Assembly: GCA_011523365.1 (NCBI GenBank)
Contig: WTGY01000127.1
Coordinates: forward strand, 1-64,000
Source: Caldilineaceae bacterium
Lineage (GTDB): Bacteria; Chloroflexota; Anaerolineae; Caldilineales; Caldilineaceae
DNA length: 64,000 nt
Direction: 5' to 3'
The position numbers and the translations under genes were made by a program. Positions 119 to 29,762 of this stretch are shown here, piece by piece. How positions within the stretch are numbered: the first letter of the stretch is position 1; each line of letters opens with the position of its first letter. The notes below the pieces were generated by a model, which was not told the origin of the DNA, did not search any database, and saw nothing but the letters and a program-made list of their open reading frames with translations.

Positions 119-1582
119 CTAGCAGACTACTTTGAGTTCGAGGTTGGCGATGCTGGCGAATTTTTCAATCTTGGGCAGGATGTGGCCTACGCCGAGGGCG
201 AAGTGGTGGGTCGGGCCCTCTTTGCACCAGGCGTTGATGAAGTCGGCGGGGCCGAGCGAGAATTTGAGGCGGCTGTCGGTGTTGCCGATCTGGAGGACGG
301 GGCCGGGAATGCTTTCGGCCTGGGCGGCGAGGAGCTTGAGATTGCCCTGGCGGGTCTGGGTCATGGAGAGGACGGTGACGGGGCCGTGCTTGACCTGGGT
401 TTCGACGCCGACGCCGCCGCCGTGTTTGCCGTGGTAGAGGGCGAGGCCGCGCAAGAGGGGCCGGCCTTGGGCGATGTCGATGTGGAAGGGGCCGTCGTGG
501 CCGGCGAGGATGAACTCCTCACGGAAGTCCATGGCGGTGACCTCGGAGTAGCTGCCGCCGGCGCCGAAGGTGTCGACGACTTTCATCACCTGGCAGTTCT
601 TGAGGTCGCCCTCGCCACTGCAGGGCACGCCGCGAGCGGTGAGAAGTGAGCAGCCCAGGGCGAAGCCGGCCGCGATCTGTTCGTATTGGTTGTCGTCGAG
701 GCCGCGATAGTAGTAGGTGAGGCCGTCGAGGTCGAAGTCGGCGACGAGGCGGTCGAGGCCGACGGCGACGCGGTAGGCCCAGTCGAGGGCCTCGGGGGAG
801 GGACGGGTTGCGAGCGGATCGGAGGGCGAGTCTTCGGCCAGGTCGAAGATGGCGAGGGCTTCCTCTTCCTTGGCTTTGATGTCTGCGGGGGTGACGCCGT
901 TGACCATCTGCGCCAGGTCGCACATTTCGAGGATTTCGATGTGGGTGCCGAGCTGGCCATGGTGCTGGGTGAAGTCGCTGTACATGTCGAGCATGCCGGG
1001 GTAGGTGTGGCCGAGGACACCCATGCGGCTGCGGCGCAGGGTGCGGAGTGCGCCGGCGGCCTCGGTCCAGTCCTGGATTTCGGCCCAGGCGCGGCGGGCT
1101 GGTTCTTCGCAGCCCTCTTCTTCGTCCAACATGCCGGAGACGACGTGGAAATCGATGTCGCAGCGATGGAAGACGGAGCTGAGCTCGGGTACGCAGCAGG
1201 CGCAGCAGTTTGCGAGCCACTCCTTGGTGTCGGTGTTGGCGTAGTCGAGGGCGGCGGAGGGCTGGAGATTGAGGACGAGGACGGGGACTTGGGGGATCTG
1301 GACGACGGGCAGGACGGTAGAGCTGGTGGCGTAGGTGCCGACGTAGCAGTAGACCATGTCGACCTGCTCGCGCTGGAAGAGGTCCCCTGCGTCGCGTCCG
1401 CCGGGGGCGGAGTCGACGAGACCGGCGCTGACGACATCGGCCCACTGGCCGACGCGGCTTTCGACGCGGGCCTGGTAGCCTTCGAGCTGCTCCTTCAGGC
1501 CTAGGAACTGGGGCCAGTACTCACCGAGGCCGATGCCGAAGATGCCGATGCGGGGACGGACGGTTTTGCGCTGGTTGCTCAT
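119..1582 (-). CDS. L-arabinose/L-fucose isomerase-family protein
   Basis: The 487-residue protein resembles the L-arabinose/L-fucose isomerase fold, cytosolic Mn-dependent aldose-ketose isomerases of about 490-500 residues. Visible family motifs are GEGDLKN near residue 324 (the region of the first catalytic Glu in AraA), AGHDGPFH near 358, and THHFALGVG near 460, which matches the C-terminal His segment. The start at 1582 has AAGGA about 9 bases upstream. It is the last gene of the minus-strand operon that begins with the binding protein at 7987. The substrate is unknown: neither kinase nor aldolase of the arabinose or fucose pathways is nearby, so a rare or modified sugar is possible. Family call is firm, specificity is not. 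Confidence 0.8.
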   Translation of the reverse strand: MSNQRKTVRPRIGIFGIGLGEYWPQFLGLKEQLEGYQARVESRVGQWADVVSAGLVDSAPGGRDAGDLFQREQVDMVYCYVGTYATSSTVLPVVQIPQVPVLVLNLQPSAALDYANTDTKEWLANCCACCVPELSSVFHRCDIDFHVVSGMLDEEEGCEEPARRAWAEIQDWTEAAGALRTLRRSRMGVLGHTYPGMLDMYSDFTQHHGQLGTHIEILEMCDLAQMVNGVTPADIKAKEEEALAIFDLAEDSPSDPLATRPSPEALDWAYRVAVGLDRLVADFDLDGLTYYYRGLDDNQYEQIAAGFALGCSLLTARGVPCSGEGDLKNCQVMKVVDTFGAGGSYSEVTAMDFREEFILAGHDGPFHIDIAQGRPLLRGLALYHGKHGGGVGVETQVKHGPVTVLSMTQTRQGNLKLLAAQAESIPGPVLQIGNTDSRLKFSLGPADFINAWCKEGPTHHFALGVGHILPKIEKFASIANLELKVVC

Positions 1583-1633
1583 GTTCTCGTTCCTTGTTCT
1601 TTCCTCGTAATAGGTTCCGTTGACGAACGCCTG

Positions 1634-1681
1634 AACCGCGAACTGCGGTTTATCCGCGAAGAGACGCGAAGGGGCGCGAAG
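1634..1681. repeat. Hairpin plus 10-bp CGCGAAG repeats
   Basis: The gap between the isomerase and corrinoid genes holds a perfect hairpin (AACCGC 1634-1639, GCGGTT 1645-1650) followed by three CGCGAAG units at 1655, 1665 and 1675, exactly 10 bases apart. No gene is supported in 1583-1811. The block lies inside an operon, so it would be transcribed. Confidence 0.6.
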
Positions 1682-1811
1682 AAAACCCTTTGGTGTTGGC
1701 GCGGATGATGGGCGTTAAGCACCAGAAACACGCGAAAGGCCATAGGATTGAGTTTGCGGTCACTTCGCCGCTGCAATGGTTCGAGCGGTCCCTTCCAATT
1801 GGCAACAGATT

Positions 1812-2567
1812 CTAGCCGCTTACGTGTTCTTCGTCGGCCTTGCTCATCAGGTCTTGCACTGCGTCGACGGCGGCGCGCATGGCTGATTCGCCTTCCCCGT
1901 CCTGGTCGATTTCATAGCCCATGTCGACCATCAGTTGCTTGGCAAGCTTAACGGACTGGCTGGCATCGGGGCCAAAGCCGTCGGCGCCGACGCTCATGGC
2001 GTACTCTTTGGTGATGGGCGCGCCCCCAACCATGACTTTGACTTTGTCGCGCAGTCCGGCGTCCTCCAACGCCTCTATGTTGGTCTTGAAGTAGGGCATG
2101 GTGGTGGTGAGGAAGGCGGAGAAGCCGACCAGCTGGGGTTGATGCTCGATGACGGCGTCGAGCAACCTTTCGGGGCTGACATTGACGCCCATATCGATCA
2201 CTTCGAAGCCGGCGCCCTCGAGCATGATGATGCAGAGGTTTTTACCGATGTCGTGGACATCGCCCTTGACGGTCAGCATGAGGACCTTGCCGACGGGTTC
2301 GACGCCGGTGTCGCCGAGGATCGGCTGGAGGATGGCCATGGCGCGTTGCATAGCTTTGGCAGAAATCATCATTTCGGGCACAAAGTATTCGCCGACCTCG
2401 AAGAGACGACCAACTTCCTGGAGCGCAGGAATCAGTGCCTGGAAGAGAATCTCCAAGGGGTCCATGCCCAGGTCGATGCCTTCCTGGGTGAGCTTTTCGG
2501 TGACGGGCGCTCGTCCTGAAAGCGTGTTTTCGTACAGCTCTTTTTTGATCTCTTCATGACGGCTCAT
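1812..2567 (-). CDS. Corrinoid (methyl-B12) binding protein of a methyltransferase system
   Basis: This 251-residue protein has the layout of MtbC/MttC/MtaC-type corrinoid proteins: a helical B12-binding-2 cap (about residues 10-90) and a Rossmann-like B12-binding domain (about 92-215). The cobalt-ligand motif GDVHDIGKN is intact at residues 102-110, with His105 as lower ligand. Such proteins carry a methyl group between a substrate-specific methyltransferase and a second acceptor such as tetrahydrofolate or CoM. The start has GGAGG 9 bases upstream. It lies between the 270-residue unknown and the isomerase. Neither an MttB-like nor a MtaA-like methyltransferase is adjacent, so the partner is either the unknown gene, further left of the window, or elsewhere. 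It is slightly longer than usual (about 210-220), with an acidic C-terminal tail. Confidence 0.92.
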   Translation of the reverse strand: MSRHEEIKKELYENTLSGRAPVTEKLTQEGIDLGMDPLEILFQALIPALQEVGRLFEVGEYFVPEMMISAKAMQRAMAILQPILGDTGVEPVGKVLMLTVKGDVHDIGKNLCIIMLEGAGFEVIDMGVNVSPERLLDAVIEHQPQLVGFSAFLTTTMPYFKTNIEALEDAGLRDKVKVMVGGAPITKEYAMSVGADGFGPDASQSVKLAKQLMVDMGYEIDQDGEGESAMRAAVDAVQDLMSKADEEHVSG

Positions 2568-2659
2568 GCGGTGTGCCTCCGGTACCAGCGGCGGATCTGT
2601 ATTTGGTCTCAGTGATGCGGACTGCGCTTAGATTGCAAAACGGCAGCTTGGTTGACGGT

Positions 2660-3472
2660 TCAGGCGGTGAAACAGTCTGCCATCTCTTCAAGGAAATCGT
2701 CTACCGACACCTGCCGGTATGACTCACGGCTATGGGGGCGGGCCGGGTGGCCGTCTTGTTCCAGCGCTTGCCGGACGGCTTCCGGCAGGCGGTCGAGGCT
2801 TAGCTGAACAATGTCATCGGCCGGCTGGGCGGCGCAGATCTCGACGGTTGGCGCGGACGAACTGTAGTAGTAGACGGATTTGAGACGCGTCTTCAGCATT
2901 CTGCGGGCGTAGTCGGGCAGGAGAGGGTGTGCGCTGTCCCCGTTTTCCGTGGCCGGTTCCTGGCGGCGTTTGGGGGTGAGATCCTGCGGCCAGAAGAGGC
3001 GATTGATGTGGAGGTCGAAAACTTTCTTGAGCATTGCTGCCGGCGTGACTGGGGCGGTGAACCAATTGGAGGCGGGCCAGACGTCGAGCCAGGCCCAGGC
3101 GCCGCCGATGCCGGCCTCGTCGAGGGTCAGATCGAGGCGGCCGGCGCAGGAGGCGATACCGATCCGGTCTGCGCTGTCGGTCCGGTCGCGAGTGGGGGAC
3201 GCCTCTAACGGATCCTGGCCGATGACAGCGAAATGCTGGGGGTAGATGAAAAAGTCGCTGCCGCTTGCCCTCTGCACATCGTAAAAGGCAGTGGTCAGGG
3301 CCAGCAGGGCGTAGGCGGTGTGGAGGATGCCGTCCTCGAGTTGGGGGGAGACGACGCCGACGCGATCCTGGTCGTGGTAGTCTGCGCAGAAGGCGCTGAA
3401 GGCGACGCGTTTGCCTGACTCCGGGCGCTGGTATTCGAAGTGTGAAGAGCGGAGTGCCTGGCTTGTATGCAT
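2660..3472 (-). CDS. Unrecognised 270-residue protein in the corrinoid operon
   Basis: I do not recognise this protein. It is soluble, with no signal peptide or membrane segment. It is rich in Trp, Tyr and Asp in the middle (for example AWAWLDVWPASNWF near residue 130) and contains a YYYSSSAP stretch near 200. It reads through as a single frame, lies 28 bases downstream of the FAD oxidoreductase and 92 bases upstream of the corrinoid protein on the same strand, and so is very probably co-transcribed. No convincing ribosome binding site precedes the start at 3472, where the heptad repeat sits. Context suggests an enzyme or substrate-binding component of the corrinoid step, but nothing in the sequence proves it. 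Confidence 0.75.
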   Translation of the reverse strand: MHTSQALRSSHFEYQRPESGKRVAFSAFCADYHDQDRVGVVSPQLEDGILHTAYALLALTTAFYDVQRASGSDFFIYPQHFAVIGQDPLEASPTRDRTDSADRIGIASCAGRLDLTLDEAGIGGAWAWLDVWPASNWFTAPVTPAAMLKKVFDLHINRLFWPQDLTPKRRQEPATENGDSAHPLLPDYARRMLKTRLKSVYYYSSSAPTVEICAAQPADDIVQLSLDRLPEAVRQALEQDGHPARPHSRESYRQVSVDDFLEEMADCFTA

Positions 3473-3480
3473 TGGAACAC

Positions 3481-3508
3481 CAGTGGTCGGTGGGTAGTGG
3501 TCAGTCAG
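3481..3508 (+). repeat. Heptad repeat, CAGTGGT type
   Basis: Four consecutive 7-base units (CAGTGGT, CGGTGGG, TAGTGGT, CAGTCAG) fit the pattern YNGTNNN. The stop codon of the FAD oxidoreductase (3501-3503) is formed by the repeat itself. Confidence 0.7.
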
Positions 3509-4559
3509 TTTGCAGACAGTTAAGGTTGAACTCTTTCTGCATGGCGGAGCGGATGTTGTCGATAAAGCGCACGCCCTCGTTGTCGGGACAGAGGTTGTGG
3601 GTCAGCCCGATATGCTCCAGGTGTTTTTTGGCGAGGGCGCCGACGAGATAGAGGCCGGGGCGCTCGCAGGATTCGAATGTTTCTTCATCGAATTCGAGGT
3701 TGCCGTTGAGGAGGCGCGTGTAAAGGTCCTGGGCGGGTCTGTGGCCGATAAGCATGTAGCAGAGATCATAATTCCAGGTTTTCTGGCCGTCTGGCGTTTG
3801 GACCACGGCGGTGTTGTCTTCCAGAGAGACGACCTGACTTTCGGTCAGGATTTCGGTGTTGACGAGGCGGGCGTCGTGTTGGCCCCATTTCGTCTTCTGG
3901 AGGTGCAGTATTTCGTCGACGGCGTCTCTGGATTTGCGCACCACCCAGAGGATGGTGTTGCGGGGGCAGAGGGCGACGATGCCGTCGGCGGAGGAGAAGC
4001 CGCCGCCCATGAAGAGGACTCTTTGATCACTGATATGTTCCCATTCATGGAAATAGTGCTGAACTGAGCCGTTCAGCTCGCCGGGAATGCCGGCCAGATT
4101 GGGCTCGTCGTATGAACCGGTGGCCAGCACGATCCGCTTCGCCATGAGGCAGGAAGTACGCCCCTCGCCATCGCGCACGGACAATAGAAAATCATCCTTG
4201 GCGCCTTCGATATCGACAAGCTCGTGGTAGGTCTTGATGGGGAGATTGAATTTCTGCGCAAAATCGCTGTAGCTCTGGATCAGCTCCTCGATACGGGGGT
4301 GGTACTCATTCCCTTCGCGGGCCAGGATGGGGTCCTCCGGATCCAGCACCATGTAGGAGAGATACGAATGCATCAGCATGTTCTTCATATAGTGGCGGAG
4401 ATTGTTACAGATCTCTTTGCGCTCGATGCCGAGAACGCGGAGGCCGATGTCGGAGAGCACTTTGAGGGCGGCCAGTCCCCAGCCTCCGCAGCCGACCACG
4501 ATCACATCATATTGGGTCGTGTCATCTATTGTAGGTTGATTTGCGGACATGCGATTCAT
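3501..4559 (-). CDS. FAD/NAD(P)-dependent oxidoreductase (thioredoxin-reductase-like fold)
   Basis: The 352-residue protein has an N-terminal FAD-binding GxGxxG loop (GCGGWG, residues 23-28) followed by a YDVIVVG-type strand and the LATGSYDEP motif near 145-153. A second dinucleotide-binding loop, MGGGFSSAD, sits at 184-192. This is the two-domain layout of the thioredoxin-reductase/YpdA and flavin-monooxygenase group. There is no CxxC redox pair. It lies between the ABC permeases and the corrinoid protein gene; a role in reductive activation of the corrinoid or oxidation of the imported substrate would fit but is inferred. An internal ATG at 4550 is an alternative start; neither has a strong ribosome binding site. 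Confidence 0.85.
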   Translation of the reverse strand: MNRMSANQPTIDDTTQYDVIVVGCGGWGLAALKVLSDIGLRVLGIERKEICNNLRHYMKNMLMHSYLSYMVLDPEDPILAREGNEYHPRIEELIQSYSDFAQKFNLPIKTYHELVDIEGAKDDFLLSVRDGEGRTSCLMAKRIVLATGSYDEPNLAGIPGELNGSVQHYFHEWEHISDQRVLFMGGGFSSADGIVALCPRNTILWVVRKSRDAVDEILHLQKTKWGQHDARLVNTEILTESQVVSLEDNTAVVQTPDGQKTWNYDLCYMLIGHRPAQDLYTRLLNGNLEFDEETFESCERPGLYLVGALAKKHLEHIGLTHNLCPDNEGVRFIDNIRSAMQKEFNLNCLQTD

Positions 4560-4607
4560 TGGGGCAGCGACGGTCGTTGGTGGTTGCGGTCAGATGGAAG
4601 AGCCGGG

Positions 4608-5477
4608 TCAGGTTTTAATGGCGCCGGAGGTGAGCCCTTCGACGAAGAGGCGGCTGGTGAAGACGAAGAGTAGCACCAGGGGAATTGAGCCGAGCAGCAG
4701 GCCGGCCATCACGCGCCCGTAGCTGGTGTAGTACTGTTCCATGTAGGAGTAAAGCCCCGGTGTGAGCGGCCACATTTTGCGTTCCGAGAGGGTCAGGGTG
4801 GGCCAGATCAGGTTGTTCCAGGTGCCGAGGATGTTGAGCACGGCGACGACGCCGAGCATCGACCGGGTCAACGGCAGGGCCACGTGCCAATAGATCTGCC
4901 AATCGGAGGCGCCGTCGATGCGGCAGGCGTCGAACATCTCGCCGGGCAGGCTTTCGAAGAAGGCGCGCAGGATAAGGATGCCGATGAGCTGTCCGCCTGC
5001 GATCCAGGGCAGGATCAGAGACCAGTAGGTATTGATGAGGCGCAGATCTCTGATGAGCACGAAGGAGGGCACGAGGGTCAGCGACGCCGGCACCATCATC
5101 AGGGCCAGCACGGCGTAGAAGACGAATGTTCTGCCTGGAAATCTTATCTGAGCGAAGGAATAGGCCGCCAACGAGCTGAGGAGGAGCACGCCGATGACGG
5201 TGGCGCCGCTGGTGATGATGCTGTTAAGGAGGAACTGGCTGATGATCTGGACGGCGAACTCGTAGTTCTCCCAGCGCAGCGGCCAGGTGGGGAGGAAGGG
5301 CACGCGAGTGAACTGGGAGGGACTTTTGAGTGAGATGATGACCGCCATGACCAGCGGCGCGATCATGAGGGCGCAGAGTATGCCCAGAGCCAGCGTGCGC
5401 CAGCCGTCGCCGCGGTACAGGCGGCGACTCTGGTTTTGCGGGGGGCCGCCGGTAAGCGATTCGCTATGCGTTACCAT
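4608..5477 (-). CDS. Carbohydrate ABC transporter permease (MalG type)
   Basis: This 289-residue inner-membrane permease has about six hydrophobic segments and the cytoplasmic EAA loop (DACRIDGASDWQIYWHVALPL region, near residue 185) that docks the ATPase. It ends with the EGLTSGAIKT tail typical of CUT1 MalG-like subunits. The start has AGGA 8 bases upstream. It is the second permease after 5543-6439 and is followed closely by the FAD oxidoreductase. No ATPase gene accompanies it, which is common when one MsmK-like ATPase serves many CUT1 importers. Confidence 0.93.
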   Translation of the reverse strand: MVTHSESLTGGPPQNQSRRLYRGDGWRTLALGILCALMIAPLVMAVIISLKSPSQFTRVPFLPTWPLRWENYEFAVQIISQFLLNSIITSGATVIGVLLLSSLAAYSFAQIRFPGRTFVFYAVLALMMVPASLTLVPSFVLIRDLRLINTYWSLILPWIAGGQLIGILILRAFFESLPGEMFDACRIDGASDWQIYWHVALPLTRSMLGVVAVLNILGTWNNLIWPTLTLSERKMWPLTPGLYSYMEQYYTSYGRVMAGLLLGSIPLVLLFVFTSRLFVEGLTSGAIKT

Positions 5478-5496
5478 GCCGGGATCCTGATTGCGG

Positions 5497-5517
5497 TGCG
5501 TCTTGCGTACTGCGTGG
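5497..5517 (+). repeat. Heptad repeat, TGCGTAN type
   Basis: Three 7-base units TGCGTCT, TGCGTAC, TGCGTGG in the gap between the two permease genes. The same unit recurs at 11408, 14209 and 41884. Confidence 0.6.
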
Positions 5518-5542
5518 TACGGGGCAGGCGATAGTCATGCTG

Positions 5543-6439
5543 CTAGTATTCCTGGGACCTTATGTATCGCATGTTCAGGATGGTTGCCACGAGGGTTATC
5601 AGGAACATGACGACGCCGATGGCAGAGGCGTAGCCCATGCGGCTGATGCGGAAGGCGTTGAAGTACATCCACATTCCGGGGACCTGGGTTGAGTCGATGG
5701 GTCCGCCCTGGGTCATTGCCCAGACGGCGGAGTATTCCTGCACGCCCCACATGATAGTCAGCACGATGAGCAGTTTGATCTGACCGGTGATGAGGGGCAG
5801 CTCGATGTATCGCAGGCGCCGCCAGCCGCTGGCGCCGTCGAGAAGGCCGCTTTCGATGATCTCGACCGGGATGGCCTGCAGTCCGGCAAGCAGAATGAGG
5901 ACGGAGATGCCGTCTATCCAGGGGAAGTTGCGGAACATGACCGCATAGATAGCGATTTTGGGTTCGGCGAGCCAGGCGTGGGTCCAGTCCTGGAGGCCGA
6001 CGCCGATGAGGATGGCATTGAGGGGGCCGATTGTGGAGTCGTAGATAAATTTCCAGAGCAGGATGAGGACGACGGCGGGGATGATGACGGGCAGAATCAT
6101 GAAGAGGCGGAAAAAGTACTTGGAACCCTCGTTTCGGATGCGGTGGATCAGAACGGCGACGCCGGTGGAGAGGCCGACGAAGGCGATCAGGTACCAGATG
6201 GTGAGCAGGGCCATATTTTTGAGGGAACGGATGAAGACATCGTCGTCGGTGAAGAGCTCGACGAAGTTGGAGAAACCGATGAAGTTCCCTGCCAGCCCGG
6301 CGTTCCAGTCAAACATGGAACGGTAGAGCCCGGAGACGGCGGGATAGTATTGGAAAACAAGGAGGAAGGCCAGGGTAGGCACGACCATCAGATACCCTGT
6401 CTTTGTCTCCCAGATCCGTTCCCAGAGTGTCTTTTTCAT
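5543..6439 (-). CDS. Carbohydrate ABC transporter permease (MalF type)
   Basis: The 298-residue CUT1 permease has an N-terminal hydrophobic segment (GYLMVVPTLAFLLVFQYYP) and five further membrane spans. The EAA loop ESGLLDGASGWRRLRYIELPL is near residue 197. It pairs with the MalG-type subunit downstream and the binding protein upstream. No Shine-Dalgarno sequence is obvious in front of the ATG; the gene start lies 11 bases after the stem-loop at 6451-6484, so processing or coupling may control its expression relative to the binding protein. Confidence 0.93.
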   Translation of the reverse strand: MKKTLWERIWETKTGYLMVVPTLAFLLVFQYYPAVSGLYRSMFDWNAGLAGNFIGFSNFVELFTDDDVFIRSLKNMALLTIWYLIAFVGLSTGVAVLIHRIRNEGSKYFFRLFMILPVIIPAVVLILLWKFIYDSTIGPLNAILIGVGLQDWTHAWLAEPKIAIYAVMFRNFPWIDGISVLILLAGLQAIPVEIIESGLLDGASGWRRLRYIELPLITGQIKLLIVLTIMWGVQEYSAVWAMTQGGPIDSTQVPGMWMYFNAFRISRMGYASAIGVVMFLITLVATILNMRYIRSQEY

Positions 6440-6450
6440 CGTGGTAAGAG

Positions 6451-6484
6451 GCCGGTGGTTAGCGGATAGCTGCTAACCACCGGC
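6451..6484 (-). promoter_or_regulatory. Stem-loop between binding-protein and permease genes
   Basis: A perfect 13-bp inverted repeat (GCCGGTGGTTAGC / GCTAACCACCGGC) with an 8-base loop fills the gap between the binding-protein stop and the permease start. It has no U-tract, so it is more likely to protect the binding-protein mRNA end or limit read-through than to terminate fully. The left arm is also a CGGTGGT/TAGCGGA heptad repeat. Confidence 0.75.
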
Positions 6485-6493
6485 ACTGTGACG

Positions 6494-7987
6494 TCAGGGG
6501 CAGGCGTTGCCTTGCTCGTCAATGTAGCGGGTTGCGTAGCCCTCGAAGGCGGCCTGGTTCTGTTCGATGCACTCGTCAATGGAGATCTCATCGAGCAGGT
6601 AGGACCACCAGGCCTTGCCGCAGGCTTCGGCGGCTTCGAGGTCCATGGTGACGATCTCGTACTGGAACATGGTGACGTAGCCGATCGATTCTACCAGCCC
6701 CTTATGCGCCTCGGCGAAGCGGTCGGGGACCCTGGTACCCTTGACATTGGGCATGTTCTGGCCGATTTCGCCCTGCACCAGTTCAATGTTTTCGGGGTGT
6801 GAGAAGAAGCGCAGCAGGTCGATGGCGGTGTCGAGCACGCCGTCTCTGCGGGCGCGGGTGGCGATGGCGAAGTTATCGGTCACGGTGCCGACGTTGGGGG
6901 CGACGGTGGGCGGGTCGGTCACGAACTCGCTGCTCTCCTTGGTCAGGGGCGGCGCCCAGAAGGTAGCCCACTCGAAGTCCAGCAGCGGATCGATCTCGAG
7001 CTGCGGAATGATCCAGGAGCCGTTCTCGGTGATGGGCGTGTTCTTGGTGAGGAAGAGCCGGGTGGAGTCGGGCGCGGAGACTGTCCAGTCGGCGCGGCGG
7101 TAGGGCACGTTGAGCTTCCACAGTTCGAGCCACTGGCGGAACTGGGGGAGATGGGCGTGATAGACGCCGTCGCGGATGGCGCAGGCGACCTCGGAGAGTT
7201 CGGCGAAGCGGCCATCGGGGTTGACGAGGGGGGCGAGGTCGCGCTCCATGATCATGGAGCCAATCTGTTGGCGGTACCAGGCATCGGTGTCGGCGGGGGA
7301 GAAGGTGATGAAGTCGTACCCGATGAGGCCGGCGTCGCTGGCAACCTGGCAATTTTCGAGGAATTCAGCATAGCTGTTGGGGACGGAGATGCCTAGCTCT
7401 TCGAACATGTCGACGTTATAGAAGAACCAGGTCGTGTTGATGCCGAAGGCGACGTTGTAGAAGTTGCCTTCGATGTTGAGCATGGAGTTGGGCGTGGGAT
7501 AGAACTGGTCGAGCCAGCGTTCGCTGCCCGGTTCACCTGCGGCGATATAGGGGTTTGGCTCCTGGAGTGCGTCGGTCAGGACGACCCACCAGTCTTTGTC
7601 GACGTCCTCTTTGATGATCCACTGGGCGGCGGGCATGATGTGGGGGACTGTGCCTGCGGTCTGTTGGGCGACCATCCACTCGCGGCTGCTGACGCCGGAG
7701 GGCAGCCTGATCCATTCAATCGAGACGCCGGGATGCTCGGCGGTGTAGTCGTCAAGCACCTCCAGGATCTTGTTGTGCGGGTTAGGGTTGTCCTCGCTGC
7801 GCTCCATGCTTTCGGTCGGGGTCCAGCCACCCAGCCATGCGATCAGTTCCTGGGTGGCGGCGGCCGGTTCGCCGTCCTGCTGTGGCGCGGATTCGCCGGC
7901 CGGAACACATGCGGCCAGGGCCGTGCCGGCCGAGACAACGCCAACGGTCTTCAGGAAGTTTCGCCTAGAGAGGTTCAGGTTTTCCAT
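6494..7987 (-). CDS. Extracellular sugar-binding lipoprotein (family 1), Tat-exported
   Basis: The mature protein is a periplasmic-type family-1 solute-binding protein that would deliver a sugar or sugar derivative to the permeases downstream. The N-terminus has a twin-arginine motif (SRRNFLK, residues 7-13) and a lipobox ending at Cys27 (LAAC), so it is a Tat-exported lipoprotein of 497 residues. The start at 7987 is chosen over an upstream in-frame ATG at 8191 because AAAGGAG lies about 10 bases before it and the signal peptide begins there. It is the first gene of the minus-strand operon. The ligand cannot be read from the sequence; the corrinoid protein and isomerase downstream hint at a methylated sugar. 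Confidence 0.92.
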   Translation of the reverse strand: MENLNLSRRNFLKTVGVVSAGTALAACVPAGESAPQQDGEPAAATQELIAWLGGWTPTESMERSEDNPNPHNKILEVLDDYTAEHPGVSIEWIRLPSGVSSREWMVAQQTAGTVPHIMPAAQWIIKEDVDKDWWVVLTDALQEPNPYIAAGEPGSERWLDQFYPTPNSMLNIEGNFYNVAFGINTTWFFYNVDMFEELGISVPNSYAEFLENCQVASDAGLIGYDFITFSPADTDAWYRQQIGSMIMERDLAPLVNPDGRFAELSEVACAIRDGVYHAHLPQFRQWLELWKLNVPYRRADWTVSAPDSTRLFLTKNTPITENGSWIIPQLEIDPLLDFEWATFWAPPLTKESSEFVTDPPTVAPNVGTVTDNFAIATRARRDGVLDTAIDLLRFFSHPENIELVQGEIGQNMPNVKGTRVPDRFAEAHKGLVESIGYVTMFQYEIVTMDLEAAEACGKAWWSYLLDEISIDECIEQNQAAFEGYATRYIDEQGNACP

Positions 7988-8439
7988 CTTGTCATTTCTC
8001 CTTTTGCGGTCAGTGCGCGAATACGGAATGTTAAGATGGCAGGCGAGGGGCCTGCTTAGCCAGGTTGATGGTGGACCGGAAGAGCGGGGGCATTGCAGAT
8101 TCGCCTCGGCTTCGCGGTGTGTGGGCGAGCGCCGCGCGTCATTGCCAGCAAGACTCCGGCAGATTATAGCCGATAGGAGATTGGAGAGCAATCACCCTAA
8201 AAAGGGACAATGACCGGTCCCTGTTGGCCGCGGCCAAGTTCAGTAGGCAGCGTGTCCAGTGCGGTTGTCCGGCGGCAGACGTCTTTGCAGGGAAAATCTG
8301 TCGTTGCATGTTCAATCGTACCAGTGGTAGTTTCTATGTACAAACTTGAACAGGATTCCAGTGTCTGGAGGGCGCACCACAGTACGATGCAGAAGACCCG
8401 ATGGCGTGCTCACAGGAGGTGGAAACCAGGAGGGCAGCG
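7988..8439. promoter_or_regulatory. Divergent promoter region with a 14-bp palindrome
   Basis: This 452-base region separates the sugar-binding-protein gene (-) from the PhyH gene (+). It holds a perfect 14-bp palindrome, TTGGCCGCGGCCAA (8224-8237), immediately preceded by a small hairpin (AGGGAC 8203-8208, GTCCCT 8217-8222), and a spaced inverted pair TGTTCAA (8309-8315) / TTGAACA (8346-8352). The palindrome is a plausible operator for a dimeric repressor. No clean -35/-10 pair was found and no regulator gene is linked. Confidence 0.45.
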
Positions 8440-9261
8440 ATGACGTTTCAGTTCGAAGATTGGATGGTGCATGCGTATCATCAGCAGGGGTTTATCATCT
8501 TTCGCGGCATTGTGCCGCCCTCGCTCCTGACGGACTTGCGGCGCGAGGCGGACAGGGCGCGTGCGCTGGCGCATGAGCTCAACGGGCCGCAGACGCAACG
8601 GATTCAGCCGCTGGATCGGTACGAAGAATATTTCGATCTACAGCCGTTCAGGGACTATGCCGAACTTGATGAGCTGCGGGAGACGGTTGACCGATTGCTG
8701 GGACCGGGGTATACGCACGCGCACCTGGACATTATGGGGTTACTGGTCGAGCCGTTGGAACGGCCTTGGCACTGCGGCTGGCACCGGGACGGCGTGGTGG
8801 AGGTGCCGGCGGAGGCCCGAGATGCGGAGATGGAGTCGTTCATGGCGACGGTGTGGAACGATCTGCGCTATTTCAACCAAGTCAACTGCGCGATTTACGC
8901 GGACTCCTGCACGTGGTATGTGCCGGGCAGCCATCTGCGGCAGCAGGATCTTCCTGACGAGGTCCAATCTACGGGCGACCCGGTGATGAAGGAGGCGCCG
9001 GCGGAGTGGAGCGACGCCGAGGCGGAGCAGTTTTACTTTGCGCATTGCCGGTCGATGCCGGGGGCGGTGCAGGTCTATCTGGGGCCGGGTGACTTCATGG
9101 TCTACCGCAACCTGGCGTGGCATTGCGGCATGTATCTGCCCTATCAGCCGCGGGCGACAATTCATGACATTATTCGTCATAAGGGCAGGAATGCGTGGAT
9201 GGAGAAGTGGAATAAGGTCAAGCAGGCGGCGCAGAGGCGGGTGACGGGCGCGGTTGACTGA
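8440..9261 (+). CDS. Phytanoyl-CoA dioxygenase (PhyH) family protein
   Basis: A 273-residue Fe(II)/2-oxoglutarate-dependent oxygenase of the PhyH superfamily. The facial triad can be seen as HRD within WHCGWHRDG (near residue 115) and a distal His in AWHCGMY near 228, with an Arg soon after for 2-oxoglutarate. The family hydroxylates small molecules; the substrate here is unknown. The start at 8440 is preferred over 8401 because GGAGGG lies 7 bases upstream. It is a single gene divergent from the sugar operon and convergent with the peptide transporter operon, so it may share the regulatory region with the importer. Confidence 0.88.
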   Translation: MTFQFEDWMVHAYHQQGFIIFRGIVPPSLLTDLRREADRARALAHELNGPQTQRIQPLDRYEEYFDLQPFRDYAELDELRETVDRLLGPGYTHAHLDIMGLLVEPLERPWHCGWHRDGVVEVPAEARDAEMESFMATVWNDLRYFNQVNCAIYADSCTWYVPGSHLRQQDLPDEVQSTGDPVMKEAPAEWSDAEAEQFYFAHCRSMPGAVQVYLGPGDFMVYRNLAWHCGMYLPYQPRATIHDIIRHKGRNAWMEKWNKVKQAAQRRVTGAVD

Positions 9262-9301: not shown

Positions 9302-10270
9302 TCAGTTGCTGCTGTTACCGGGGGCGGGTCCTTTTCTTAGCAGTCTTTCACGTTGAATCGGGTCGGAGATGGCGCGCAGGGTGGCGGCGAGCAGGTTGAG
9401 GCTGAGGGTGGTGAGGAAGATGGTGAGGCCGGGGAAGGCGACGATCCACCAGGCGGAAGTGATGTACTGGCGGCCGCCGGCAATCATGAGACCCCAGGAG
9501 GACTGAGGCAACTGGATGCCAAAGCCGAGAAAGCTCAAGCCTGCCTCACTAAGAATGAGGGTTGCCACCTCCAAGGTGCCTAAAATGATAAGTGGGGAGG
9601 CGACGTTGGGGACAATATGGCGGAAGAGGATGCGGGTATGGGTATTGCCTATGGCGATGGCAGCGTCGATGAACGGTGAGTTGCGCAAGGCCAAGGTCTG
9701 GCCGCGGGCAAGACGCGTGTAGGCCATCCACCTGACGATAGCGAGCACGACGACCAGGTTGAGGAAACCGGAGCCGAGGGCGAAGAGAACCAGCAGCGCC
9801 AGCAGAAGGACGGGGATGCTCATTTGAATGTCGACCAGGCGCATGATGATGTCATCGGCAGCGCCGCGGTAGTAGCCGGCGATGATCCCCAGCAGGGTGC
9901 CGATCAGACCGGAGACGAGCGCGCTGCTGAGCCCAACCGTCAACGAGACGCGTGCGCCAAAGATGATGCGGCTGAGGATATCGCGTCCGAGTGGATCGGT
10001 GCCCAGGATGAAGGGAAAGCCGACCGGTGAGTCGTTTTCATCGAGGGCACGTGCCATGGGGGGCATGTTGCGCAGTTTCAGGTCCTGCTCGAGCGGGTCG
10101 AAGGGCGCGATCAGTTCGGCGCCGATCGCCGAAAACAGTACCAGGGCGAGAATCGTTACGGCTACGAAGGTGACGGGATCGCGCATCAGGCCGCGCACGA
10201 TGAGCCAACGGGATGCACTCTGCGAACGCGCCGTCTGTTCTTCGGGAAACAACGTCATCTCGTCGGACAT
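9302..10270 (-). CDS. Peptide/nickel-type ABC transporter permease (DppC type)
   Basis: This 322-residue membrane protein has the DppC/OppC layout: an N-terminal cytoplasmic stretch, a first membrane span, the conserved ILGTDPLGRDILSRIIFGAR region near residue 90, and further spans with the EAA-type loop (AAIAIGNTHTRILFRHIVPN) near 215. It forms a heterodimer with the DppB-type subunit upstream. AAGGCGG precedes the start. The operon stops here without DppD or DppF ATPases, and the next gene is convergent. Confidence 0.93.
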   Translation of the reverse strand: MSDEMTLFPEEQTARSQSASRWLIVRGLMRDPVTFVAVTILALVLFSAIGAELIAPFDPLEQDLKLRNMPPMARALDENDSPVGFPFILGTDPLGRDILSRIIFGARVSLTVGLSSALVSGLIGTLLGIIAGYYRGAADDIIMRLVDIQMSIPVLLLALLVLFALGSGFLNLVVVLAIVRWMAYTRLARGQTLALRNSPFIDAAIAIGNTHTRILFRHIVPNVASPLIILGTLEVATLILSEAGLSFLGFGIQLPQSSWGLMIAGGRQYITSAWWIVAFPGLTIFLTTLSLNLLAATLRAISDPIQRERLLRKGPAPGNSSN

Positions 10271-10379
10271 GGCCGCCTTGACTTCTTGAGGAGAGCGGAG
10301 GGAACAGAAGGCTGCCCGTAACCCTCCAGGGCGGTACGTATTATGCAGCAGGCAGGGCGCAGCAGGCAGGGCGTGCGGT

Positions 10380-11297
10380 TCACTGGAAACGGATCCTCGG
10401 GTTCAGGTATACATAGCTCAGATCGACAAGCAGATTGACGACGATCACCATGCAGGCGACCACGAATACGGTCGCTTCAACCAAGGGCAGGTCTCTCCGC
10501 TGCAGGGCTTGCAAGGTCAGATAGCCGATGCCCGGCCAGGCGAAGACCGTCTCCACCAGAATTGCCCCATTCAACATAGACGACAACATATCGCCGCTGA
10601 TGGTGACGACGGGAATGGCGGCGTTTTTGAGTGCGTGGACGAAGACGATGCGGCCTTCGGCAAGTCCCTTGGCGCGAGCGACGGTGATGTGGGGCCGGTT
10701 CATCTCGTCCAACATGGCGCTGCGGGTGATTTGGGAGATGCGTCCCAGGGGTGAAAGGCAGAGCGTCAGCGTCGGTAACGCCATGTAAGAAAAGCCACCA
10801 TAGCCGGACGTCTTAAACCAGCCGAACTGGACGGCAAAGACGATGATCAACATCAACGCCATCCAGAAGTCGACCATGGAGACACCCCCCAGCGAGAGGA
10901 CGTTGATAATTCTGTCCAGGTAGGTCTGGGGACGAAGTGCGGCCGCGGCACCCAAGAGAATGCCGATGGGCGCGGCCAGCAGGAAGGCTGCTGCGGCCAG
11001 TCTGAACGTAGCGGGCAGACGGTCTATCACCAGGCTCAGGGACGATGTTTTCTGCCAGAAGGAGTCTCCGAAGTCGAGGAGGATCGCGCGCGCCGCGAAT
11101 CTGGCATATTGCACTGGAATCGGATCGTTGAGGCCCAACTGGTCGCGCACCTGCTGGACGCGTTCTTCGGAGGCTTCGACGCCCACCATGATACGAACGG
11201 GGTCACCTATCACACGGCCCGCAATGAAGACGAATGTGAGAACAGCGAAGGCGACGCCAATCGAGTGAATGGAACGTCTGAGAAGATAGGGAAGAAT
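10380..11297 (-). CDS. Peptide/nickel-type ABC transporter permease (DppB type), non-canonical start
   Basis: A DppB-type permease with the ASEERVQQVRDQLGLNDPI motif, an SQITRSAMLDEMNRPHI segment and a C-terminal YLNPRIRFQ tail. The only canonical in-frame start is GTG at 11213, which would cut through the first membrane helix. The same frame upstream encodes a textbook DppB N-terminus (LPYLLRRSIHSIGVAFAVL) back to an ATT codon at 11295-11297, preceded by AAAGG at about 8 bases. No ATG, GTG, TTG or CTG exists in that frame before the stop at 11394-11396. I therefore extend the gene to 11297 and flag either a rare ATT start or an indel in the assembly. An out-of-frame ATG peptide (11392 to 11312) ends just before. 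Confidence 0.8.
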   Translation of the reverse strand: MLPYLLRRSIHSIGVAFAVLTFVFIAGRVIGDPVRIMVGVEASEERVQQVRDQLGLNDPIPVQYARFAARAILLDFGDSFWQKTSSLSLVIDRLPATFRLAAAAFLLAAPIGILLGAAAALRPQTYLDRIINVLSLGGVSMVDFWMALMLIIVFAVQFGWFKTSGYGGFSYMALPTLTLCLSPLGRISQITRSAMLDEMNRPHITVARAKGLAEGRIVFVHALKNAAIPVVTISGDMLSSMLNGAILVETVFAWPGIGYLTLQALQRRDLPLVEATVFVVACMVIVVNLLVDLSYVYLNPRIRFQ

Positions 11298-11407
11298 TGG
11301 ACCGGCCTTTACTGCGGAGGAGCGAGAAGTGAGGAAAGAGGGGGCGGGAGATGATCTCTCTTGCCTACTCTTCTTGTTGGAACAGCAGTCATCTCAACTC
11401 CGAGTGC

Positions 11408-11509
11408 TGCGTATCACGTATTGCGTAGTTCTGTTTTCGCAGGACATGGCGCAACACGTGATACGCATTCAGTTGACGAGCCTCGACGGGCTGTTCAATC
11501 TCAGCCCGT
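11408..11509 (-). promoter_or_regulatory. Two stem-loops downstream of the peptide-binding-protein gene
   Basis: On the minus strand an 8-bp hairpin (11486-11493 with 11502-11509) abuts the stop codon of the binding-protein gene. It is followed by an 18-bp inverted repeat with one mismatch (11408-11425 with 11450-11467). The outer repeat is built from TGCGTAT heptads. Both would form in the mRNA between binding protein and DppB, like the stem-loops at the other binding-protein genes in the window. Confidence 0.65.
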
Positions 11510-13113
11510 TACTTGGGTGACATCTCCTTAGCCTGCAGGCGATGGTCCAGCTTCACGTTCCAGTTCAGATCTTCACTGATGAGATAGGCCAGGTCCAGGT
11601 GAGCGATCAGGCCGTAGGCGAAGTCGTCGTAGGCGACCTGTGCGGCCTCCTTCAGCTTCATGTCACGGGCATCACCGGAGAGAGTGCGGGCCTCTTCCCA
11701 GAGCGCGTCGACCTCGGCGTTGCAGTAGAGTGACACCACGCCACCGCAGGTGAAGTAGTTGACGTAAGAGAACCAGAGGTCGAGGATCTCGTTGCCGTGA
11801 AGGTGAACGGCGACCCAGTTGGGCTGGCCTTCCAGTTCGGACCAGTTATGGCTGAACTGGGGGTTGAAGGTATCCGGGGGCATGACACTGACGGTGGCAT
11901 TGAAGCCGACATCATTGAGCATACCGCCGATAGCCTGGATGACCTCGACATGGCCTGCGTGCAGGCCCTGGCGGGAGGCGAGGGTGAATTCCTGGCCAAC
12001 ATCTACGCCGTCAGCTGCGGCGTCTTCGAGAAGGCCGCGAGCCCGATCGGGGTCATAGGGATAGGGCTGAAGGTCAGGGTGGTGCCCGGTGGCGGTCTCA
12101 TTGACGATCTGGCCGGTGATGGTCGCGGCTCCACCCAGGAGCGTTTCGACGATCAGCTCTTTGTCGATAGCAAGGTTGAGTGCTTCGCGGACGCGGATGT
12201 CCTCGAAGAGTTTCTGGTTACCCATGCGGGCAAACATGGTCTCGACGCTGGCGACAGAGGCGCAGCGCAGGCTTTCATCACTCAACGCCGCGTTGCACTG
12301 ATCGGGCGTCACGAACTGGGCGATGTGGACCTCGCCGGCCTGGGCGGCGGCTGCCCGCACCGTGTCTTCGGGCAGGAAGCGCCAGGTCAGCTTGTCAAAG
12401 GATACCTTACCGCCGGCCTCGTCGGGGTTGCCGTGGCCCCACCAGTCGTCGTAGGCGACGAAGGTGATCGACTCACCACGCTTCCACTCGTCAAGCATAT
12501 AGGGGCCGGTGCCAACCAACTTGGTGGAATAGGTTTCCGGCTCTTCCTCGATCTGCTTGGCCGAGGAGATGGCGACGAAATACATCTTTTCCAGCAGGAT
12601 CGGGTCGGGGTCGGCGGCGGATACGTTGACGCTGTATTCATCGACCGCTTCGGCGCTGAGGGTACCGCCGATAAAGCCGGTGAGCGTGTTGACGAGGTCA
12701 GCCTCCCACATGTAGTTGATGCTTGTGGCCACGGCTTCGGCGTTCAACGGGGAACCGTCATGGAAGGTTACGCCCTCGCGCAATTGGAACTGGATGGTCC
12801 TGTCATCGAGCCGTTCCCACTCGGTTGCCAGCAAGGGGATGATCTCGCCGGTGGAGAAGTTGCGCGTGACCAGCGTTTCGACAACGTTCAAGCAGCCGTT
12901 GCAGTTGGTTTCGGCGGCAGCCAACGTTGCCTCCAGGGATGTCATTTCCTGTGCGACAGCGACGATGAGCTCGCTTTCCGCCGCCTCCATCATGTCCCCG
13001 TCGCCTGTGTCTGCGGGCGCGGCTGCGGGTGCGACACACCCGGCCGCGAGCAGCAGGAGCAACAGGGCTGCCAGGGGTACAGCTGAACGAATCACTACCT
13101 TACGCAATGCCAT
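11509..13113 (-). CDS. Peptide/nickel-type ABC transporter substrate-binding lipoprotein (family 5)
   Basis: A 534-residue family-5 extracellular binding protein of the DppA/OppA/NikA group. A lipoprotein signal peptide is evident: RKVVIR, a Leu-rich core and a lipobox ending at Cys26 (AAGC). Family features include the IPLLATEWERLDDRTIQFQL region near residue 90 and FHDGSPLNAEAVATSINY near 120. The start at 13113 is preferred to the upstream ATG at 13302 because AAAGGAG lies about 9 bases before it and the signal peptide begins there. It leads the operon binding protein-DppB-DppC. The cargo may be peptides, opines or oligosaccharides. Confidence 0.93.
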   Translation of the reverse strand: MALRKVVIRSAVPLAALLLLLLAAGCVAPAAAPADTGDGDMMEAAESELIVAVAQEMTSLEATLAAAETNCNGCLNVVETLVTRNFSTGEIIPLLATEWERLDDRTIQFQLREGVTFHDGSPLNAEAVATSINYMWEADLVNTLTGFIGGTLSAEAVDEYSVNVSAADPDPILLEKMYFVAISSAKQIEEEPETYSTKLVGTGPYMLDEWKRGESITFVAYDDWWGHGNPDEAGGKVSFDKLTWRFLPEDTVRAAAAQAGEVHIAQFVTPDQCNAALSDESLRCASVASVETMFARMGNQKLFEDIRVREALNLAIDKELIVETLLGGAATITGQIVNETATGHHPDLQPYPYDPDRARGLLEDAAADGVDVGQEFTLASRQGLHAGHVEVIQAIGGMLNDVGFNATVSVMPPDTFNPQFSHNWSELEGQPNWVAVHLHGNEILDLWFSYVNYFTCGGVVSLYCNAEVDALWEEARTLSGDARDMKLKEAAQVAYDDFAYGLIAHLDLAYLISEDLNWNVKLDHRLQAKEMSPK

Positions 13114-13365
13114 ACTCTGAGTCTCCTTTGCTACGTGTGATGATGTATGAAACGCGGATGAGGGATTGGCGGGGTTGCATGTGCTTCCAGTTTGGCGGAC
13201 AGCAAGACCCTTGCCAAGGACGATTGGTTGCCCCTGCCGCTCTTTGGGAAGAGCGGCGTAATGGGAACGACTCCATTTTACGGAGAAATTGTGTTGTGTC
13301 AAACGTCGCTATCGCGGCGTTCGCAGCCAGATTGCTGCAGTGGCAGGGCTGGGACGGTCCGCCGG

Positions 13366-23853: not shown

Positions 23854-23880
23854 AGCGAGCGGTAAACACCGGTGCTCGCT
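23854..23880. terminator. Hairpin between convergent genes
   Basis: AGCGAGC (23854-23860) pairs with GCTCGCT (23874-23880), with further GGT/ACC pairing inside. It lies between the beta-propeller gene and the convergent UxaA-like gene and overlaps the stop of the latter by two bases. There is no T-tract, so the terminator role is weak. Confidence 0.4.
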
Positions 23881-26668: not shown

Positions 26669-26710
26669 CAGGGTCCTCCGTTTCGCGACCTGCGTTGCAC
26701 AAGTGAGGCT

Positions 26711-27946
26711 CTACGCCTCCGACGCGCGGACGGGCTGAGTCGGCATCCACCGCATCATACCGATCATCGCCAGCACCACCAAAGCGGAGGTGGCCGCGCC
26801 GATCCAGTAGGGGACCGTTGGGCCGCGGGCGAAGAGGACGCCGGCGATGGCGGTGCTGATGATGGTGGACAGATTGATGGAGGATTGAAACCAGCCGAGG
26901 ACGCTGCCGCGGTCCTGATCGGCTACGAGCGAGGTGGCCATCGACTGCAGGGGTGGACTGGAGAGCCCGTAGCCGACGGCAAAAAAGAGTGAACCGAAGG
27001 CACCAAGCCAGGGCGTTGTCACGAGCGCGTAGACCGTCATTCCGATCGTACGCAGAATGCTGCCCATCACGACAAGCTGACCTTCGTCAAAGCGCTGCGC
27101 CATACGCCGCAGCAGGTAGGTCTGCGTGAACAGCTGGGAGATCCCCACAACGGAGAGCAGCAGGCCGATGCCGACATCGGTGACCTCCCGGCTCTCGCCC
27201 TGGAAGAGTACCGCTTCTCCGAAAAGCGCAAAGGTGGACTGCAGTAGACCCAGCGCAAACTGACCTAAGAAGGCGATGAGGAGGACGGCCAGCAGCGGCA
27301 GGGCCCAGGGAGCGCCCCCCAGCAGGCTGCCGAGGGTGAGGCTGCCGGCGCGGCGGGCGCGGGCGCGGCGCCTTTCTTGCGCAGAGAGGGTTTCATCCAG
27401 CGCGTACCAGGTGAGCAGGACGACAGCGGCTGCGGCTACGGCGGCTACCAGAAATGGCACTGCGGGACCGTAGGCTGCGGCGAGCGCACCGCCCAGGGCA
27501 GGCCCGAACATGAAACCGAGGCCAAAAGCGGCGAGTATGTAGCCGAGGCTCTCGGTGCGCTTCTCGCGGGGCGTGATGTCGGTAATGTAGGCCTGGGCCA
27601 CGATGATATTGCCTCCGGTGATACCATCGAGGATGCGGGCAAAGAAGAGCCAGCCGAAGCTCGGCGCAAAGGCCAGGATGACAAAGCTGATGACCGTCCC
27701 GATCTGGCTGACGATCAGGACCGGAATGCGCCCGTAATTGTCGGAAAGGCGGCCGACATAGGGGCCGGAGAGGAATTGGGCGGCGAAGAAAGAGGCGCTG
27801 AGTAGTGTGATCAGCTCGGCCGACAGATGAAACTCGCGCTGGGCATACAGCGGCAGAACGGGAAATATCAGGGACGCGCCCAGCATCTGAACAAAGACGA
27901 CCAGCAGAATTGTGAGTAGTCGTCTGTCGATTGTGCCGGATTTCAT
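26711..27946 (-). CDS. MFS transporter (TetA-like drug/metabolite antiporter group)
   Basis: A 411-residue protein with 12 predicted membrane helices and the MFS loop-2/3 signature GPYVGRLSDNYGRIP near residue 60. The ARILDGITGGN motif near 107 is typical of the DHA1 (TetA/Bmr) group. It lies 42 bases upstream of the UxaA-like gene on the same strand and may move the same sugar acid or a drug-like compound; substrate specificity cannot be read. The ribosome binding site is weak (GAGAGAAC). Confidence 0.88.
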   Translation of the reverse strand: MKSGTIDRRLLTILLVVFVQMLGASLIFPVLPLYAQREFHLSAELITLLSASFFAAQFLSGPYVGRLSDNYGRIPVLIVSQIGTVISFVILAFAPSFGWLFFARILDGITGGNIIVAQAYITDITPREKRTESLGYILAAFGLGFMFGPALGGALAAAYGPAVPFLVAAVAAAAVVLLTWYALDETLSAQERRRARARRAGSLTLGSLLGGAPWALPLLAVLLIAFLGQFALGLLQSTFALFGEAVLFQGESREVTDVGIGLLLSVVGISQLFTQTYLLRRMAQRFDEGQLVVMGSILRTIGMTVYALVTTPWLGAFGSLFFAVGYGLSSPPLQSMATSLVADQDRGSVLGWFQSSINLSTIISTAIAGVLFARGPTVPYWIGAATSALVVLAMIGMMRWMPTQPVRASEA

Positions 27947-29657: not shown

Positions 29658-29664
29658 AACCAAC

Positions 29665-29762
<98 letters not shown>

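Follow-up and report, generated by a model that had tools for sequence, protein, structure and literature searches.

A conserved operon with a sugar importer and a corrinoid protein in Caldilineaceae: possible B12-dependent demethylation of a methylated, rhamnose-containing substrate

The described corrinoid systems closest to the one discussed here, MtvABC, Odm, Vdm and CdmBCA, combine a corrinoid protein with a protein of the URO-D superfamily, a MeTr-like acceptor methyltransferase and the activase RACo. Proteins of all four kinds are encoded in the 5.67 Mb draft genome of a Caldilineaceae bacterium (Chloroflexota; GCA_011523365.1), in which a corrinoid protein of the same type belongs to a seven-gene operon at the start of contig WTGY01000127.1 (contig C89 below). 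The window, i.e. the whole stretch of DNA that was analysed, comprises 64,000 nucleotides of this contig, position 1 being the contig end. Unlike in the known systems, the corrinoid gene is located in an operon with a sugar importer and, in its probable continuation, a GH78 α-L-rhamnosidase; the acceptor methyltransferase and the activase are encoded elsewhere, the URO-D protein is only remotely similar to its characterised counterparts, and the substrate is probably neither an aromatic compound nor a halomethane. We propose, with a probability of about 0.5, that the operon serves the catabolism of a methylated, rhamnose-containing oligosaccharide with B12-dependent demethylation to folate.

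Removal of O-methyl groups from sugars has been described for porphyran-degrading marine bacteria, in which a P450 enzyme demethylates 6-O-methyl-D-galactose with formation of formaldehyde (PMC10033563). As in that system, O-methyl groups of polysaccharide sugars would be removed by products of genes that are kept together with glycan-degradation genes, but the P450 reaction is oxidative and forms formaldehyde, whereas B12-dependent methyl transfer to folate is proposed here. O-methyl sugars are carried by some algal and cyanobacterial polysaccharides, and the oxidative P450 route is the sole described way of demethylating them that we found. The open-access literature, with most subscription papers outside the scope, contained no description of corrinoid-dependent demethylation of sugars, in agreement with the statement in an earlier note on this DNA that the known corrinoid systems do not demethylate sugars. 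Oligosaccharide utilisation loci with an importer, GH78 and GH88-GH105 enzymes are of the rhamnogalacturonan or ulvan type. The Caldilineaceae operon shares with them the importer, the rhamnosidase, a uronyl-hydrolase-like gene and a sugar-acid dehydratase, and additionally harbors the corrinoid and URO-D-superfamily proteins. The parts are of known kinds; the combination and the likely substrate class are new. If the proposal is correct, carbohydrates would join amines, aromatics and halomethanes as substrates of B12-dependent methyl transfer. It would also give a little-known Chloroflexota genus a part in one-carbon and methylated-glycan cycling, and would offer a testable function for a branch of the URO-D superfamily, which is large and for the most part without assigned functions.

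The operon consists of seven open reading frames on the minus strand, running from position 7987 down to 119 in the order given in the earlier note, with intergenic gaps of 28-92 bp except for 229 bp ahead of the isomerase gene. Families were assigned with Pfam and NCBIfam profiles, the NCBIfam scores being compared with the curated cut-offs. The first three genes encode a CUT1-type importer, composed of a sugar-binding protein with a Tat signal (6494-7987; SBP_bac_1 PF01547, 44 bits; PF10518) and two permeases (both PF00528), one UgpA/MalF-like (5543-6439; top NCBIfam model UgpA, 97 bits) and the other UgpE/MalG-like (4608-5477; top model MalG, 115 bits), both scores being under the cut-off. 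No ATPase gene is present within the operon and no search for one was made elsewhere; CUT1 importers often share an ATPase. These genes are followed by a YpdA-like FAD/NAD(P)H oxidoreductase (3501-4559; Pyr_redox_3 PF13738, 101 bits) and a protein of 270 amino acids without an assigned family (2660-3472). The corrinoid protein (1812-2567) has a helical cap and a B12-binding domain (PF02310, 96 bits; PF02607, 68 bits) and scores under the cut-offs of TIGR02370 (177 bits) and MtgC (179 bits); its B12 motif of the DxHxxG type reads DVHDIGKN and is intact, as the earlier note had stated. The last gene of the operon on this contig encodes a sugar isomerase of the AraA/FucI superfamily (119-1582; PF11762 and PF24856 over cut-off). 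Positions 1-118 are the contig end, where in relatives the operon goes on.

Related loci were collected with the 270-residue protein as query from 84,980 genomes, one per species, which yielded 23 loci, 13 of them in Caldilineaceae. Because the loci were chosen by this gene alone, the neighbouring genes allow a fair test of conservation. All seven genes are collinear in 11 of the 13 Caldilineaceae loci; in a twelfth (L003) a contig end cuts the operon and the five genes covered are all kept, and from the last (L013) the genes for importer and corrinoid protein have disappeared. Thus, the same-strand unit recognised in the earlier note is real, with all reading frames in place and conserved in relatives, and these show loss of genes but no reshuffling; separation of the genes was not seen. 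The importer, corrinoid and isomerase genes have mean identities to the window of 92-97%; the lower values for the FAD (83%) and 270-residue (76%) proteins indicate that their genes evolve faster. The binding protein is 87-99% identical in 11 relatives, missing from L013 and reduced to a remnant in a further genome, G318. A divergently oriented neighbour of the PhyH family (2-oxoglutarate dioxygenase-like; 8401-9261, plus strand; PF05721, 26 bits, cut-off 22) is kept in 12 of the 13 loci, the exception being the truncated L003, and also in G318.

Beyond the isomerase gene, the relatives encode a GH78 α-L-rhamnosidase and then a URO-D-superfamily protein of 377 amino acids; in most of them the series goes on with a dehydratase of the enolase superfamily (galactonate/rhamnonate dehydratase group), an RraA-like aldolase and a GH88-like hydrolase. 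In the genome studied here, the same downstream genes form contig C70 (9,181 bp, locus L027). Open reading frames, Pfam and BLAST place the rhamnosidase at 260-2965 of C70, the URO-D methyltransferase candidate at 3051-4184, the dehydratase at 5846-7126, the RraA-like protein at 7766-8431 and the GH88-like hydrolase from 8466 to the end. Aligned to L003, the C89 end and the C70 start lie about 140 bp apart in matching order and orientation; from this alignment, not from the assembly, we infer that the two contigs are joined. The GH78 assignment agrees with five Pfam rhamnosidase domains in the orthologue of a relative (L004; PF17389, 254 bits). By inspection, no export signal was seen in the GH78 or GH88-like protein. 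The sugar context assumed in the earlier note has accordingly gained in detail, the extension being that of a rhamnose-type sugar pathway with GH78 and sugar-acid genes. No cobalamin riboswitch was found in the window, in C70 or in the stretch of contig C44 discussed below.

The URO-D gene is the third gene past the corrinoid gene in the relatives. Its product matches PF01208 with 61 bits and has mtaA_cmuA (TIGR01463) as the best named model, at 48.9 bits against a cut-off of 235; PDB sequence searches gave no match. It thus belongs to the same Pfam superfamily as MtaA and CmuA (PDB 4ay7), but the zinc ligands that MtaA has (His-Cys-Cys) are replaced by Ala, Met and Thr in a weak MAFFT alignment with a paralogue on C44 that does possess the ligands. 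The motif E-X14-E-X20-H, a zinc motif of some O-demethylases, was looked for and is not present. O-methyltransferases of the URO-D superfamily replace the Cys zinc ligands (PMC10418091), and MtvB and CdmB are URO-D methyltransferases that work zinc-free (PMC13222342). The missing ligands argue against thiol methylation and are no proof of ether cleavage. The earlier note had expected an MttB/MtaB-like methyltransferase left of the window. A candidate does occur there in the relatives and on C70, but it is URO-D/MtaA-CmuA-like and not MttB; the MttB family (PF06253) has no match in the genome, while a control genome does match.

The distribution of the two B12-related genes was compared in 17 genomes of one uncultured Caldilineaceae genus. 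Of these, 15 have the URO-D protein and 14 the window-type corrinoid protein; both are present in 14/17 and neither in two (G313 and G318), and the single genome with the URO-D protein only (G309) is an 81% complete draft in 730 contigs. The co-occurrence has a Fisher p of 0.022, phylogeny uncorrected. Both proteins are at least 85% identical in the relatives. The match to the window-type corrinoid gene in another genome (G320, L077) has one in-frame TAG inside the aligned stretch. In G313 (locus L013) and G318 (locus L097), the importer, dehydratase, corrinoid and URO-D genes and most of GH78 are gone or remnant, whereas the PhyH, 270-residue and isomerase genes are still held, in L013 together with the FAD, RraA and GH88-like genes. 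Since the importer, rhamnosidase, dehydratase, corrinoid and URO-D genes were lost jointly, they appear to form one functional set, and by the same comparison the isomerase and the 270-residue protein seem to have some role outside it. Both loci look like decaying operons, with a GH78 remnant in each and remnants of the binding protein, FAD and dehydratase genes in L097; judged by eye, L013 also carries an insertion with a PLD-like gene and small toxin-antitoxin-like genes. Outside the genus, searches of 400 genomes of Chloroflexota, 46 of the family and 64 of the Latescibacterota group gave only remote relatives of the URO-D protein, with no corrinoid gene next to those for which the surroundings were inspected; a plasmid collection gave no match. 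Corrinoid homologs in the plasmid collection are at most 50% identical, and the single context that was read has no matching sugar operon.

The remaining components are found in a second corrinoid cluster on contig C44 (L040, 5969-11711), which encodes an LDH-like dehydrogenase, an MtaA-type methyltransferase that retains the His-Cys-Cys ligands, a corrinoid protein, a MeTr-like methyl-tetrahydrofolate:corrinoid methyltransferase (PRK07535, 327 bits, cut-off 259) and a RACo activase (C-terminal domain, 248 bits). A tetrahydrofolate methyltransferase and a reductive activase are therefore available in the genome, outside the window operon. The arrangement is syntenic in the 15 genomes with a readable locus, including G313 and G318; the G309 contig stops short of RACo. 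All 17 genomes of the genus contain the C44-type corrinoid gene. The C44 corrinoid protein is 70% identical to that of the window, and because of this high similarity both may plausibly rely on the acceptor methyltransferase and activase of C44. For the C44 cluster itself, the zinc ligands point to a thiol or an S-methyl compound as substrate.

From homology and gene context, we infer the substrate, the direction of methyl transfer and the enzyme activities of the following pathway. The CUT1 importer would take up a methylated, rhamnose-containing oligosaccharide, from which, in the cytoplasm, GH78, perhaps with the GH88-like hydrolase, would free a methylated sugar, either O-methyl-L-rhamnose or a related one. 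The operon's corrinoid protein, in the Co(I) state, would receive the O-methyl group from the URO-D protein, the MeTr-like methyltransferase of C44 would transfer this group to tetrahydrofolate, and oxidised cobalt would be re-reduced by the C44 activase. The bare sugar would be processed further by the isomerase, by the dehydratase and aldolase-like enzymes, or by both. Rhamnose is suggested by the GH78 enzyme and by a 45% identical isomerase homolog in Deinococcus, the gene for which lies directly after a rhamnose transporter and near a divergent rhaI; in rhizobia and Streptomyces the homologs have other neighbours. O-methyl rhamnoses occur in cyanobacterial exopolysaccharides (PMC4500136). 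The GH88-like and dehydratase genes make a methylated uronate possible as an alternative substrate. The isomerase itself reaches 55.8 bits with the L-arabinose isomerase AraA model NF002795 against an equivalog cut-off of 622. An alignment with PDB 4r1o showed that all four metal ligands of AraA (Glu, Glu, His, His) are conserved. The earlier note had the demethylated sugar isomerised, but the isomerase need not act on that product, because two genomes keep it without the corrinoid protein, the methyltransferase and the importer; an N-methyl sugar, also considered in the note, found no specific support. More specifically, a zinc-free URO-D methyltransferase, a dedicated corrinoid protein and a shared folate/activase module may be the first pathway by which methylated carbohydrates are demethylated with B12, a tentative proposal to which we give a little less than even odds; with the same reserve, the donor would be an O-methyl deoxyhexose or O-methyl uronate, and methylated polysaccharides would be used by a route free of formaldehyde.

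Several observations weigh against the proposed catabolism. C89 and C70 are unjoined in the assembly, and the methylation of the imported sugar is presumed. The URO-D protein is divergent and without the MtaA zinc ligands; it is a candidate methyltransferase by weak homology and context, its AlphaFold model, built from 12 near-identical sequences, has a pLDDT of 40, and URO-D-like genes of Latescibacterota, where neighbours were read, have no corrinoid genes beside them. Furthermore, the isomerase and the 270-residue protein persist where the pathway genes are lost. Of the earlier suggestion of B12-dependent demethylation of an imported methylated sugar, the conserved unit, a candidate methyltransferase and the sugar context are borne out, whereas the acceptor methyltransferase and activase have to come from another cluster.

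The URO-D protein could instead be another sugar-catabolic enzyme of its superfamily, with the corrinoid protein a C44 duplicate that serves the C44 system. Its distance from every characterised member, the absent zinc ligands and the URO-D-like genes elsewhere without corrinoid neighbours would fit, but the two genes are jointly present or lost within the genus, both are tightly constrained, and zinc-free methyltransferases such as MtvB and CdmB exist, which makes this reading rather doubtful. Some more weight is due to import of a rhamnoside with a methoxylated aromatic compound or another aglycone, from which GH78 would remove the rhamnose and which the URO-D/corrinoid pair would then O-demethylate like the aryl O-demethylases. 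Glycosides of aromatics are common substrates of GH78 enzymes. The characterised URO-D-type O-demethylases MtvB, OdmB, VdmB and MtoB act on methoxylated aromatics (PMC13222342). Nevertheless, genes for the degradation of aromatics were not seen in the operon or its extension, which instead encode a sugar-acid dehydratase, GH88-like and RraA-like proteins and an isomerase, and we consider an aglycone substrate unlikely.

Oxidative demethylation by the PhyH dioxygenase, giving formaldehyde and leaving the B12 pair some other task, would agree with the only route for sugars that we found described (PMC10033563) and with the conservation of the PhyH gene beside the operon. This is very improbable, as the gene is divergent, outside the transcription unit and retained in genomes without importer, GH78 and B12 pair. 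The least probable reading is the reverse direction, in which the pair methylates a sugar or thiol with folate-derived methyl groups. Corrinoid methyl transfer is in principle reversible, and MtaA-type relatives methylate thiols (PMC10418091), but the importer and glycosidases mark the operon as catabolic, no biosynthetic partner is present, and the URO-D protein has no thiol-binding zinc site.

Neither the 270-residue protein nor the flavoprotein is linked to the B12 step. The former gave no credible Pfam, NCBIfam or PDB sequence match. Its AlphaFold model is poor (pLDDT 55), and the best structural matches, all LmbE/PIG-L deacetylases including BshB, have Z scores of at most 6.3. Residues E46-D47 are invariant and follow P43 (P-x-L-E-D), and they could occupy the PHPDD site of LmbE/PIG-L, whereas the position of the zinc His varies. 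Homologs in Latescibacterota and Gemmatimonadota are mostly located beside a DRL/SAF oxidoreductase (PF21135), with which the gene forms a conserved pair in L015-L024; in Gemmatimonadota it is also found near an IMP-cyclohydrolase-like gene. In the genomes with these homologs, no relative of the URO-D protein could be detected. A part of this protein in B12 chemistry, as suggested earlier, is therefore improbable, and a function as substrate methyltransferase was rejected, the protein having no family match and occurring elsewhere in genomes without a URO-D relative. The flavoprotein scores 118 bits with the YpdA bacillithiol disulfide reductase model TIGR04018 (cut-off 340), and together the weak fold resemblance to LmbE/PIG-L and the YpdA-like neighbour hint tentatively at thiol or amino-sugar chemistry.

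Elsewhere in the window, genes for an oligopeptide/dipeptide-type ABC transporter (9302-13302, minus strand) adjoin the PhyH gene, a position that they also have in at least one relative (L004). A selenocysteine tRNA gene was identified by Rfam and ARAGORN at 29664-29761 (plus strand); no search for selenoproteins or SelA/SelB was made. Another sugar-acid locus is located at 23879-27946 (minus strand), where a protein of 929 amino acids with galactarate/altronate dehydratase domains adjoins an MFS transporter.

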